From Gemmatimonadota bacterium (GTDB lineage Bacteria; Gemmatimonadota; Gemmatimonadetes; Gemmatimonadales; Gemmatimonadaceae): a stretch of DNA of 64,000 nt. Numbering within the stretch: the stretch's first letter is position 1; the number at the start of each line of letters is the position of its first letter. The notes beneath the pieces are model-generated. The model saw only the letters and a list, made by a program, of their open reading frames with translations. It did not search any database and was not told where the DNA came from. Shown here one piece after another: positions 6,049 to 10,465 of the stretch. The DNA is taken from contig QHVE01000019.1 of NCBI GenBank assembly GCA_003223455.1, positions 65,247 to 129,246 on the forward strand, given 5' to 3'. The translations under genes and the position numbers were made by a program.

Positions 6049-7230
6049 ATGAAAACATGGCAAGCAACGGCAATCGCAGTCGCAGTCAGCCTGGCCTCGG
6101 CATGCGGTGACGTCGAGACCTCACCCACCATCCCCGCAGCGGTCGCAGAACCACGAATCGCCTCTCCCACGGACTCTGCAAGCCTCGCCATCGTCGCCGA
6201 GCCCGGTCCCGCGCCGGTGGACGACGCGATCTCTCCGCTCAAGCACATCACGTGGATCGACGTTCAAGTCGATGTCGGCTGGATGGATCCGAACACCGCG
6301 TACGGCCAGGCCATCGTGAGGTACGGCGCCAACAACGCGGTCGCCGACGTCGATCTCTCGGTCAGGAATGCGCAGGGGACGCTGCTGGCCACCAGCACCG
6401 GGCACGCGCAGGCGTCGTACTTCCTGCCTGGCGATCACACCCTCTACGCGAGCACGAACGCCTACGTCGCACAGACGTGCCGCGCCGCTGCCCAAGCCAC
6501 GGCGAGGGGAAACGTCTTCGACTCCTTCCTCACCACCACTCAATCGCTCGCCAGCTGGGGGCAGAAGGCCGAGACCTCCGGCAGGACGGCCACTCAGCCG
6601 GCATGTGCGTACCTGCCTCCGCCCACGTCTCCCACTGGTGGGGACGGCTCGACGACTCCGCCGACCGGTGGCACCACCCAGCCGCCGACCTATCAGCCGG
6701 CTCCCTTCGTTCCCAGCGGTCACTGGGAGTGCGTGGTCTACTATCGGGGCACCGACTACGAGCGTCAGTACTGCACCTGGTATGCGGACTACGCCAGACT
6801 TCCCAGGACCTCTCCGGCGTTCGCGCTGATCGGCGGTGGCGCCACGTTGCGCACCCTGACCTCCGTCGACCTCCCACGGCTCTTCGTCATCGTCAGCGAC
6901 CAGGTCCCCGCCGACGCCATGGCCGTCATCGAGCGCGGGAGACAGGGGCCGTTCAAGAACGTGCTGCTCGTTCCGTCGAGCACCGTGCGGCCGGCCGTTC
7001 TCGTCGCCGCGCTCCGCGCTCTCGCCGACTCGCGGAGCCGACAGGGGGAGACCCCAAGCACCGACCTGCAGCTCACGCTCAAGGGCGGCGTCCTCGACCA
7101 GCAGATTCCTGCTGCCGCTCGCGATTACGCGGCGAGCTTCACCACCCTCATCGCCAACGCGAAGCGTGGCGACGCCGGCGCCTACGGCACGCGCCCGCTC
7201 CTCGAGATCCAGCTCGGCGACATGAAGTGA
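6049..7230 (+). CDS. Lipoprotein of unknown function with Pro/Thr-rich linker
   Basis: A 393-residue lipoprotein. The N-terminus MKTWQATAIAVAVSLASAC is a lipoprotein signal with the Cys of the lipobox at residue 19, and the mature part opens with GDVETSPTIPA. Residues ~60-150 look like an extracellular beta-sandwich. A low-complexity linker (Gly/Thr/Pro, around residues 188-222) separates this from a C-terminal half containing a Trp/Tyr/Cys-rich segment (WECVVYYRGTDYERQYC). It follows the previous exported protein by 19 bp, suggesting that both act at the cell surface. No enzyme motif is recognised. Confidence 0.7.
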   Translation: MKTWQATAIAVAVSLASACGDVETSPTIPAAVAEPRIASPTDSASLAIVAEPGPAPVDDAISPLKHITWIDVQVDVGWMDPNTAYGQAIVRYGANNAVADVDLSVRNAQGTLLATSTGHAQASYFLPGDHTLYASTNAYVAQTCRAAAQATARGNVFDSFLTTTQSLASWGQKAETSGRTATQPACAYLPPPTSPTGGDGSTTPPTGGTTQPPTYQPAPFVPSGHWECVVYYRGTDYERQYCTWYADYARLPRTSPAFALIGGGATLRTLTSVDLPRLFVIVSDQVPADAMAVIERGRQGPFKNVLLVPSSTVRPAVLVAALRALADSRSRQGETPSTDLQLTLKGGVLDQQIPAAARDYAASFTTLIANAKRGDAGAYGTRPLLEIQLGDMK

Positions 7231-7350: not shown

Positions 7351-7755
7351 CTAGGCGCTCCTTCCCCCCACCTCGCGCCCGTGACGGCGCACCAGCGCGT
7401 CGATCGCCGCGATCATGTCCCGCAGCTCGAATGGCTTTCGGATCATCGGGCACTCGCACGAGTGGATCAGCTTGTGCGCACGCTCGGAGATGTCCCCCGT
7501 CATGAAGAGCGTCCGCCGGCGAAGATGCGGGTACGTCGCCGCCGCCAGCTCGAACACGACGTCCCCGCGCGTATCGGGGATTCGCAGATCGAGCAGCAGT
7601 GCGTCGACCGGTTCGTGCGACAGTATGCTCAGCGCGCTGTCCCCCGACTGCGCGGCGATCGCCTCGTAGCCCGCGCGTTCCAACGCGACTTTGAGCGCCT
7701 TGCAGATCGCCGGCTCGTCATCGACGATCAGCACACGTGCGCGCACGGGCTGCAT
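7351..7755 (-). CDS. Single-domain response regulator (REC only)
   Basis: A 134-residue receiver domain without an output domain, like CheY or Spo0F. The acidic pair is D12-D13, the phospho-acceptor is D56 (ALLLDLRIPD), the conserved Thr lies in FMTGD (T86) and the conserved Lys in IRKPFE (K107). All residues for phosphotransfer are present. It lies 65 bp downstream of the AraC-like regulator on the same strand, so it may share that transcript. With no kinase gene nearby it probably receives phosphate from a histidine kinase encoded elsewhere, or acts as a relay intermediate. Confidence 0.92.
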   Translation of the reverse strand: MQPVRARVLIVDDEPAICKALKVALERAGYEAIAAQSGDSALSILSHEPVDALLLDLRIPDTRGDVVFELAAATYPHLRRRTLFMTGDISERAHKLIHSCECPMIRKPFELRDMIAAIDALVRRHGREVGGRSA

Positions 7756-7820
7756 TCAGCCCTCGCCCACGGCGATCGTCGTCGTCGGCCGCACTGGCCG
7801 GCGCCGCCTTCCCGCCAGCG

Positions 7821-8627
7821 TTACGCCGGCTTCGCGTTCTTCACGCCATGCTCGGCGTTCGCCCGCCACAGGTGCGACGCCAGCATCCTCACGAACCGAT
7901 CCGGAGTCAGACTGCTCCGCAGGTCCCTCGGTGAACATCCCGTCCATTCTCGAAGCTGCTCCGTCAGATGGTCCGGATCGGCGTATCCCAGCTTGAGTGC
8001 GACTTCCTTCACCCGCACGCTCGGCTCCTGCACCAGCGTGTACGTCCGCAGCAGACGGGCGCAGATCAACAGTTGGCGCGTCTGCAGCCCGACCGGCATG
8101 AGATGGCGATGCAGCGTTCGCGGAATCATCCCCGCCAGACTCGCCAGCTCCTGCGCGTTCTTCACCCGGGCGGGTGAGCGGAACAGCTGCTCGATCGCCC
8201 GGATCACCATCACCGGCAACGCTCGTAGCGGCGTGGCCAGCTCCCGCAGCATCGCCTCGGCGATCGGATATGCCGGTGCGCGCTCGATCAGATCCAGGAA
8301 CCGACTCGGCTCGTCGTCGAACCGGTTCAGTACCACGTGCTGCAACCCCACGTGCGCGAGCTGAACCACCTGCCGCATCGCCGCCGGTGTCAGCGTCGTG
8401 TACGCGATCGCCGGCACCTGCGGATGCGTTGCCATCACCTCGTCCAGCGCGACACCCGAGCTCCCGACGTGCATCGCCGGGTCGACGATCATCACGTCGA
8501 TGTCCGACGACCGCAGCAGCGTGTGCAGCTCCGCCGCGTTCCCGACCGCGCTCAGTGCATGCTGCCCCCCGAGCACGATGCGGAGATGAGCCAGGAGATT
8601 GCGCGGAAGGAGCGCGGCGACGTGCAA
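7821..8627 (-). CDS. AraC-type transcriptional regulator with receiver-like N-terminus
   Basis: A 268-residue protein. Residues ~1-125 resemble a degenerate receiver fold, with an Asp in the DVMIVDPAM segment but no acidic pair near the N-terminus, so phosphorylation is doubtful. The C-terminal ~100 residues form an AraC-type double helix-turn-helix: the first helix pair around LASLAGMIPRTLHRHL and the second around RVKEVALKLGYADPDHLTEQ, followed by the WTGCSPRDLR signature. The reading frame opens at a TTG (8627); the next GTG start would remove about 17 residues. It is divergent from the tiny lipoprotein gene at 8758, making it a candidate regulator of that gene. Confidence 0.82.
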   Translation of the reverse strand: MHVAALLPRNLLAHLRIVLGGQHALSAVGNAAELHTLLRSSDIDVMIVDPAMHVGSSGVALDEVMATHPQVPAIAYTTLTPAAMRQVVQLAHVGLQHVVLNRFDDEPSRFLDLIERAPAYPIAEAMLRELATPLRALPVMVIRAIEQLFRSPARVKNAQELASLAGMIPRTLHRHLMPVGLQTRQLLICARLLRTYTLVQEPSVRVKEVALKLGYADPDHLTEQLREWTGCSPRDLRSSLTPDRFVRMLASHLWRANAEHGVKNAKPA

Positions 8628-8757
8628 TCGAGGAGCGGTAAGATTGTCGCAAAAACCGAGAATTCTGTCTCAAAATGCCGGTTTACGCGATGCACCGCGA
8701 CCCTACGTTCGACGTACAGGTTTTCCCCGGACCCACTCACTCGAACGGAATCGCCCC

Positions 8758-8895
8758 ATGTCCCGTCGCCAGATCGTCCTCGCCGTCCTCACGCTCGCCT
8801 CTCTGGCCGCCACCGCTTGTGGAACGTCACCGACCGCGCCGAACCGCAGCACGACCCCCGTCTACTCGTCGGGCGTGAGCGTTGGTTCGGGCTGA
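8758..8895 (+). CDS. 45-residue lipoprotein or exported lipopeptide
   Basis: A very small gene starting with ATG at 8758 and ending at 8895. It encodes 45 residues: a classic lipoprotein signal (basic MSRRQ, hydrophobic IVLAVLTLASLAATA, then the lipobox Cys at residue 21) and a mature peptide of only ~25 residues, rich in Ser, Thr, Pro and Gly. It is divergent from the AraC-like regulator (130 bp between starts) and its stop lies 13 bp from the stop of the converging TPR gene. Such a short mature part leaves little room for a folded domain, so a signal-like or anchoring role is possible. The gene call rests on the signal-peptide pattern. Confidence 0.7.
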   Translation: MSRRQIVLAVLTLASLAATACGTSPTAPNRSTTPVYSSGVSVGSG

Positions 8896-8908
8896 TCGCC
8901 TCCTGCTC

Positions 8909-10150
8909 CTACACGCCGGCGTGCTCGCGAAGCTCTCGAATCTCGCTCGCGATCCGGCCGACATCCTCTGGCACTTCGAACGCAACCGCCGGCGCGCGCG
9001 CCTCATGGCGCGTGTTCCTCGCCAGCGCATCCTCCGCCTCGAACACCAGCTTGTTGAACGAGTGTGACGCGGCTGTGCCGGCGGCACGTTCGAGCCACGA
9101 TCGTGCAAGCTCCGACTCGCCCAGCGTCTGGTAGCCACGCCCGACGTGAAGCTCGAACTGGACGAGGAGGAGGGGAGGAAGAACCGCGTTGGTCAGCTGC
9201 TGCCGATAGCGCTCGAACTGCAGACGACCTCCGTCCTCCGCGGCGAGCTCCATCAGGTTGATCGTCGCGGTCCAACGCAGATACTGCTCGCGCGCCGTGG
9301 CGGCGATGAGTGTGAACGCATCGCGCGCGGCGGATTTTACGCCGAGTGCGCTGAACGCCGTTGCGAGGTCGTTCAGGATGCGCGCTCGCTCGTGCTCGCT
9401 CGCGCTCTCGCGCAGCGCGTCGTAGGCGAAGCGCACGGCGGCGTCGTACCGTCCCCTCAGGATTGCGACGTGGGATCGATCGTGCGTTGCAGCGGAGCGT
9501 ACCTCGCTCAACGAATGCTCGCCGGCCAGCGCCGCCGCTGCTTCAAGCTTCTCGTCCGCTGCGGGCAGGTTGCCCTTCTCGGCCAGGACCTTCGCTTCGC
9601 CGATCCGCGCACGGAGCTGCCCGATCAGGTCGCCGAGCTGATGCGCCACCTCGGCCGCCGTTGCGAACACTGCGGCCGCACTCGCCAGGTCGCCCATCTG
9701 GCGCAGGCAGTGACCCCGCCGCAGCAGAGCATTGACGGCGACCTCGGGATCCTCGGCAGTGTGTACGTGGGCCAGGATCGTCTCGTACACGTCGGCGCTC
9801 AGCGTCCACCGTGCGTCGAGATCGAGCAACCGCGCGTACGCCATCAACCGTGGGGCCACCGCGGGCAGGGCGCCACCGCGCGTCGACGAGGTCAGCGCTT
9901 CCACGACGCCGCCGAGCAGCGTACGGGCCGGCGTTCCCTCGGGCATGTCCTCGATCACCGCGCGAACGGACCGCACGCCCCAGCTATCCGCGGCCACCGC
10001 ATCCGTACCCTCTTCGAACCACGAGTCGACGAGTCGGAGCACGATCAAGCCCGCCGATATCGCACGCCAGGCTGGATCCCTGTCATCGAGCGCGGCCAGC
10101 TCGGTGAAGAAAGCCAGATGCCGTACGCTCTCTGTCGAGTCGGCGCTCAC
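8909..10150 (-). CDS. TPR-repeat protein, regulator-like
   Basis: A 413-residue cytoplasmic protein built largely of tetratricopeptide-type helical hairpins, for example around residues 140-190 (LLRRGHCLRQMGDLASAAAV, VAHQLGDLIGQLRARIGEAK) and 230-290. I see no helix-turn-helix, no signal peptide and no enzyme motif. The GTG start at 10150 is supported by a strong GGAGGT ribosome-binding site on the minus strand just upstream. It converges on the 45-residue lipoprotein and sits next to an AraC-like regulator and a single-domain response regulator. TPR folds of this kind often bind peptides or partner proteins; here that is inference. Confidence 0.75.
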   Translation of the reverse strand: MSADSTESVRHLAFFTELAALDDRDPAWRAISAGLIVLRLVDSWFEEGTDAVAADSWGVRSVRAVIEDMPEGTPARTLLGGVVEALTSSTRGGALPAVAPRLMAYARLLDLDARWTLSADVYETILAHVHTAEDPEVAVNALLRRGHCLRQMGDLASAAAVFATAAEVAHQLGDLIGQLRARIGEAKVLAEKGNLPAADEKLEAAAALAGEHSLSEVRSAATHDRSHVAILRGRYDAAVRFAYDALRESASEHERARILNDLATAFSALGVKSAARDAFTLIAATAREQYLRWTATINLMELAAEDGGRLQFERYRQQLTNAVLPPLLLVQFELHVGRGYQTLGESELARSWLERAAGTAASHSFNKLVFEAEDALARNTRHEARAPAVAFEVPEDVGRIASEIRELREHAGV

Positions 10151-10315: not shown

Positions 10316-10462
10316 GGGGTGTGGTGGTTTGTGGTGAGTGGTGAGTGGTGAGTGGAAACGGCCTCCGGAAGCAGTTAGCTCCCGAGGCCGTTTCCGCCAA
10401 CGCACCCAACCCACCAACCACTAACCTCCAACTTCCAACTTCCAACCTCCAACCTCCAACCT
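10316..10462. repeat. Nested palindromic intergenic element (element 1)
   Basis: Left arm (10316-10355) is G/T/A-rich without C and made of a repeating GTGAGTG unit. The core is a hairpin with a 12-bp perfect stem (10354-10365 with 10384-10395). The right arm (10398-10462) is C/A/T-rich, made of CTTCCAAC- and CTCCAAC-type units, and is roughly complementary to the left arm. It ends 3 bp before the stop codon of the minus-strand deacetylase gene. The core hairpin shares sequence with the hairpins at 1763 and 52905. It probably works in 3'-end formation. Bases 10151-10315 beyond it hold the TPR gene leader and nothing else recognised. Confidence 0.75.
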
Positions 10463-10465
10463 CTA

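Follow-up and report, generated by a model that had tools for sequence, protein, structure and literature searches.

The window, i.e. the whole stretch of 64,000 nucleotides analysed here, belongs to a genome of 4.96 Mb in 127 contigs, which its relatives place in Gemmatimonadota, and it carries a compact group of four genes encoding a single receiver (REC) protein, an AraC-like regulator, a small lipoprotein and a TPR protein, at the positions given by the initial annotation (Table 1). As first described, the small gene is divergent from the regulator gene and convergent with the TPR gene, the two stop codons being 13 bp apart; the divergent pair is separated by 130 bp. The small lipoprotein is built from a signal peptide (residues 1-20), the lipobox cysteine Cys21, the residues SPTAP and a short tail; in the 413-residue TPR protein no signal peptide was seen. 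Two further features lie near the group: a predicted exported protein of 393 residues with a lipobox-like N terminus and without a Pfam match (6049-7230, + strand), and, upstream of the TPR gene, stretches of short simple-sequence repeats with the units GTGAGTG and CCAACYT (10320-10350 and 10420-10465).

Table 1. Genes and sequence features of the locus (positions in the window)
Feature	Position	Strand	Remarks
REC-only protein	7351-7755	-	134 aa; PF00072, E 4e-15
AraC/HTH_18 regulator, core member	7821-8627	-	268 aa, TTG start; PF12833, E 2e-13
Candidate operator, direct repeat TGTCGCAAAA-N11-TGTCTCAAAA, period 21 bp	8645-8675	+	Copies at 8645-8654 and 8666-8675; conserved footprint; putative regulator site
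Putative promoter of the small gene, -35 TTTACG and -10 TACGTT	8682-8687, 8704-8709	+	16 bp spacer; conserved in genus alignment
Small lipoprotein, proposed pheromone precursor	8758-8895	+	45 aa, MSRRQIVLAVLTLASLAATACGTSPTAPNRSTTPVYSSGVSVGSG
C-terminal heptapeptide GVSVGSG, proposed active segment with putative ends	8872-8892	+	Corresponds in position to the 7-mers repeated in distant members, such as HTLGSGN
Cytoplasmic TPR protein, proposed peptide receptor	8909-10150	-	413 aa, GTG start; TPR_12 and other TPR families; conserved class-wide

Homologues of the TPR protein were found in 34 of 60 relatives, in 69 of 200 genomes of the phylum by a single-sequence search and in 184 of 395 genomes by a profile search (E 1e-20), the neighbouring genes being checked for part of the matches in the two latter counts. 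In most of the loci retrieved, the regulator gene comes after the TPR gene at a distance of about 200-600 bp, and this gap was scanned for short ORFs with a signal peptide and a lipobox. In the first scan, 67 of the 72 gaps contained such an ORF on the strand convergent to the TPR gene and none did on the other strand; shuffled gaps gave a hit in 4 of 1440 cases, and windows taken at random from these loci in 12 of 1404. In the enlarged set a convergent lipobox ORF of 30-130 aa is present in 97 of 106 TPR-regulator gaps, so the check named by the initial annotation, whether the small lipoprotein and this TPR family occur together, has a strongly positive outcome. The nine exceptions are of several kinds. 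Two loci (L206, L217) have an intact small ORF that was missed by the filter or by the gap rule, and two contain damaged precursors, with the lipobox cysteine read as arginine (L203) or an in-frame stop before the repeats (L215), which may reflect natural decay or assembly error. In three loci (L124, L127, L128) the small lipoprotein gene is located at the opposite end of the operon, upstream and not convergent, and in two (L131, L218) the scan found no small gene. The TPR gene of L124, L127 and L128 is flanked by two regulators.

Cassettes with a small ORF occur in six families, including three loci (L136, L139, L142) in which the neighbouring regulator was not recognised downstream; all the loci found in these searches, which hardly reached beyond the phylum, belong to one Gemmatimonadota class, and a search of plasmids gave no match. 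The genome of the window has a second cassette (L032, G000:C97:17080-30324) consisting of a TPR protein, a regulator and a small lipoprotein with the tail GGTLDASGRR; no REC was found alongside. Neighbour clustering, which is noisy because of the shadow ORFs of high-GC sequence, revealed no further broadly shared gene beside the cassette, and the cassette has neither a protease nor an oligopeptide importer of its own.

The conserved partner of the TPR and small genes is the regulator. Its N-terminal half is receiver-like (weak PF00072 match, E 0.004), and its AF2 model (pLDDT 92.8) matches the folds of FixJ and of AraC-type DNA-binding domains. The residue set typical of response regulators (acidic pair, phospho-Asp, Thr/Ser, Lys) is incomplete in this protein: the acidic pair is missing and the Lys is replaced, and the Asp of a VVDP motif is kept. 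With the acidic pair gone, conventional phosphorylation of the regulator is improbable. The REC-only protein keeps the acidic pair, the phospho-Asp, the Thr and the Lys, and a REC gene follows the regulator immediately, on its downstream side, in 57 of the 106 cassettes, i.e. the single REC is an accessory component. With this frequency, the parallel to Spo0F proposed earlier does not concern the core of the system, and a Spo0F-like REC was rejected as a core part.

In 137 pairs of small-ORF orthologs pS is 0.49-0.61 and pN 0.12-0.31, depending on the segment, and by this substitution pattern the small gene is coding. Since coding-type substitution is seen in these pairs and the arrangement recurs in about 100 loci, the latter is beyond chance. 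The most constrained segment in the same pairs is the one following the lipobox cysteine (SPTAP-like residues, pN/pS 0.22), and the signal peptide (pN/pS 0.50) has conserved little past its hydrophobic character. For single-copy tails, pooled, conservation does not clearly exceed that of the linker (pN/pS 0.46 vs 0.51). There is an ortholog pair in which the tail, SDGVLVGSGN, is letter-identical and the linker has changed. Paralogous cassettes within one genome (G025) differ in their tails, which read CGGGVSAGSGTCH, SDGVLVGSGN, CGVTTGSDTC and CGVYAGSDQC. Many single-copy tails contain a pair of cysteines and may thus exist in a disulphide-bonded or a lipid-anchored form. As to known families, an identity of the small protein with the envelope lipoprotein LptM was rejected because the match stays below the curated cut-off (13.5 bits, cut-off 27.7), and a role in anti-phage defence was rejected, PADLOC giving no clear family match.

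The tails show their most conspicuous feature in 19 of 107 precursors, from four families (f1, f2, f5, f6), in which they consist of tandem or near-tandem repeats (Table 2). Such repeats were absent from all 31 other short lipobox ORFs of the same loci, a small control set, and were present in 15 of 5350 shuffled tails. The units are mostly 7-mers and most arrays run to the stop codon; the repeat-bearing precursors, which come from many species, contain 2-7 copies.

Table 2. Repeat units in the C-terminal tails of the precursors
Locus	Unit	Copies
L209	HTLGSGN	6
L211	YTPDPGA	7
L137	HGPDAGS	4
L210	HNPDSGN	3
L216	HLPDSGT, plus HTPDPGT	3, plus the second unit
L213	HTPDSGS	2
L153	DFVNPNA	4
L148	DFVNPHI	3
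L195	[DN][FY]VNPNV (e.g. NFVNPNV)	4
L197	As L195, one unit changed	
L147	APTLPW[VA]DVN	
L196	RRPTIPWA	3
L122	LETQGSNN	2
L126	NWQGSGT	2
L226	GHQGSGT	2

Between in-phase copies within one gene the pooled pS is 0.522 and the pooled pN 0.014; the detection of repeats by amino-acid similarity limits pN, yet copies that were recent and unselected would have a low pS too. As synonymous sites differ and nonsynonymous sites hardly do, selection keeps the sequence of every copy. Many of the 7-mers conform to the pattern x-x-[PLVQ]-[DGN]-[SPA]-[GN]-x, which the tail of the window, GVSVGSG, also follows with the final position absent. In addition, GS[GNSD] occurs no more than 14 residues from the C terminus in 48 of the 107 cassette ORFs, as opposed to 3 of 31 controls. 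These sequence patterns make the C-terminal tail the likely signal.

A different explanation is that the small gene merely encodes a very short envelope lipoprotein of the LptM/entericidin type, induced by the regulator under envelope stress, and that the TPR protein is a cytoplasmic scaffold that senses no peptide. The strong conservation of the lipobox with its SPTAP-like residues fits this, and the sub-threshold LptM score points weakly in the same direction. However, tandem 7-mers under selection, a specific link to one TPR family and lineage-specific tails would not be expected of a structural lipoprotein, and we consider this explanation unlikely.

Within the genus, the intergenic region that separates the regulator from the small gene is conserved, and it contains TGnCnnnAA as a direct repeat whose period is exactly 21 bp. 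This pattern was detected in 49 of the 107 upstream regions, at a distance of 97-139 bp from the start of the small gene; other periods between 17 and 28 gave 0 or 1 occurrence and shuffled sequences about 0. In the remaining 58 of 107 regions the pattern was not found, i.e. there the operator has diverged or is absent. According to the genus scan, the site occurs once in the genome of the window, at the cassette, and is at the cassette in most congeners; a few weaker sites were seen in two genomes, and an extra operator-like site in G008 (L244) was not judged to be a target. A 21-bp direct repeat suits an AraC-type protein, therefore the adjacent regulator is most naturally taken to control the small gene. 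We thus regard it as strongly indicated that the regulator binds the two repeats and controls transcription of the small gene, probably from the putative -35/-10 promoter that follows them, and possibly controls its own divergent gene as well.

In two genera of a sister family, extra operator copies precede a TonB-dependent receptor gene, and in this family such copies also lie before genes for a PAS sensor protein, a histidine kinase and a REC. The copies preceding the TonB-dependent receptor gene, in L274 (from 1501) and L269 (from 1501), have the 21-bp period. This receptor might be an outer-membrane importer under the same control, a candidate that we mention only as a lead.

The TPR protein is predicted to consist of N-terminal helices followed by about eight TPR-like helix pairs (AF2 model, pLDDT 95.3), and the modelled superhelix is of the peptide-binding type, which suits the binding of a peptide but does not decide ancestry. 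Foldseek placed LGN/Pins first, followed at like TM scores by RappLS20 in complex with the Phr* peptide (TM 0.51/0.57) and NprR (TM 0.49/0.55), both of which align along nearly the full length of the protein; LGN/Pins scored similarly or better. Fold was therefore set aside as a criterion for membership in the RRNPPA family, since it does not discriminate, the generic TPR fold scoring alike. The best sequence hits are eukaryotic and designed TPR proteins, and no RRNPPA receptor is named among the 60 best profile hits in the PDB. RRNPPA receptors have an N-terminal HTH or, in Rap/NprR, a three-helix bundle; among the Pfam domains of the present protein no HTH was found, and in its model the TPRs are preceded by helices. 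The three TPR proteins of family f5 that were scanned have N-terminal extensions without a Pfam match.

An extracytoplasmic sensor, either a TonB-dependent receptor or a sensor kinase, might also perceive the peptide, with the TPR protein merely tuning the regulator from inside. The additional operators of the sister family, which precede just such genes, and the REC found in about half of the cassettes would agree with this. On the other hand, the cassette has no conserved receptor or kinase, while the TPR protein is nearly always there, and TPR proteins commonly bind short peptides; we give this arrangement little credence.

Taken together, the co-occurrence of the genes, the tandem C-terminal repeats under purifying selection and the conserved operator before the small gene support the peptide-signalling role suggested by the initial annotation, and we consider it quite probable that the locus is a self-contained cassette in which the regulator acts on the precursor, the precursor yields the tail peptide, and the peptide acts via the TPR receptor back on the regulator. 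In such a circuit the HTH_18 pseudo-receiver regulator would bind the operator repeats and drive the precursor gene. The precursor would be exported by Sec, then cleaved and lipidated via signal peptidase II, as the conserved lipobox suggests, leaving a short tail at the periplasmic or outer-membrane side, from which proteolysis may free about 7 C-terminal residues as a peptide. This peptide would re-enter the cytoplasm and bind in the groove of the convergently encoded TPR protein, which, free or peptide-bound, would alter the activity of the adjacent regulator, as Rap does with ComA, and so close a feedback loop on the small gene. We infer these last steps, i.e. the return and binding of the peptide and the effect of the TPR protein on the regulator, from the near-obligate pairing of the genes and from analogy. 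The single REC, where present, could be a second target or an input.

Two further explanations concern the nature of the small gene product. Lipoprotein leaders are known sources of pheromones, and a fragment of the signal peptide might act as one, as in enterococcal sex pheromones, the mature tail being irrelevant. The initial annotation had allowed for either the processed lipopeptide or its leader as the signal; the former agrees with the repeated tail under purifying selection, but the leader was rejected as the signal, because the amplified and selected part is the tail and the signal peptide is only loosely constrained, and a leader pheromone is accordingly very improbable. It is equally improbable that the small gene encodes the precursor of a ribosomally made toxin or modified peptide (a bacteriocin or multi-core RiPP) for which the TPR protein provides immunity or maturation: repeated cores are known from some RiPP precursors and the two-cysteine tails would fit, but the (noisy) neighbour clustering found no further conserved gene, a lipoprotein signal peptide would be unusual as a RiPP leader, and no anti-phage family is clearly matched.

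The signalling cassette is best viewed against the RRNPPA systems, whose pheromones are 5-10 aa long and whose propeptides may contain several copies (PMC11343458), with Sec/SPII export (PMC9765709). RRNPP_detector formalises their size and adjacency rules and has been applied to Firmicutes and viruses only (PMC10075063). The TPR protein of the window, at 413 aa, falls within the 250-500 aa of a TPR-containing RRNPPA receptor (PMC10075063), and an adjacent gene in the 10-100 aa propeptide class with a secretion signal, of the SPase II type as judged by the lipobox, is found in 97 of 106 pairs. The loci found here are, however, all in one Gemmatimonadota class and not in Bacillota or their mobile elements, from which alone the papers found describe RRNPPA-type signalling (PMC10075063, PMC9765709, PMC13220807). 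The cassette would thus work like an RRNPPA system, but we do not file it there, as the comparisons of fold and sequence do not decide on common ancestry. Our literature search, beyond whose reach were most subscription journals and all preprints, found no such system described in Gemmatimonadota or other Gram-negative bacteria.

The cassette thus points to a peptide-messenger system that has so far gone undescribed and whose type has been reported from Gram-positive bacteria alone. In its full form, we are inclined to accept, with some reservation, a pheromone system of a diderm phylum, made up of a heptapeptide-releasing lipoprotein, a TPR protein as intracellular receptor and an AraC-type pseudo-receiver regulator, that is common throughout the class, has multiplied into private channels within single genomes and is independent in origin of the RRNPPA systems of Bacillota. 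If this is true, an RRNPPA-type architecture is able to evolve or to function in the presence of an outer membrane, which raises the question of how the peptide passes that membrane. It would also provide a testable communication code for Gemmatimonadota, which are abundant in soil and of which few regulatory systems are known, and the repeated precursors spell out candidate peptide sequences directly.

It remains to compare the general features of the cassette with individual systems. The Rap-Phr systems of Bacillota are similar in several respects. Firstly, a short exported propeptide is encoded next to a 250-500 aa TPR receptor without an HTH, and helices precede the TPRs in Rap as they do in the model of the TPR protein. 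Secondly, the Phr peptide is a C-terminal segment of 5-10 aa, sometimes multi-copy (PMC11343458), similar to the release that we propose here. Thirdly, Rap acts on the response regulators ComA and Spo0F, and here a regulator, often with a REC, adjoins the TPR gene. The differences are as follows: the cassette is from a diderm phylum, its precursor has a lipobox (SPase II) and is convergent to the receptor, it encodes its own AraC-type pseudo-receiver regulator, and no sequence relation was detected past the TPR, the fold likeness being no better than to unrelated TPR proteins. In NprR-NprX, PlcR-PapR and AimR-AimP, TPR proteins sense short linear peptides and the propeptides may be multi-copy (PMC9765709), as would be the case here. 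NprR, PlcR and AimR, however, carry their own HTH, whereas DNA binding in the cassette resides in a separate protein. Finally, the enterococcal sex-pheromone systems of the PrgX-cCF10 type combine lipoprotein precursors with cytoplasmic peptide receptors, the role that we propose for the TPR protein; there the pheromone comes from the signal peptide, whereas the part that is repeated here is the C-terminal tail.
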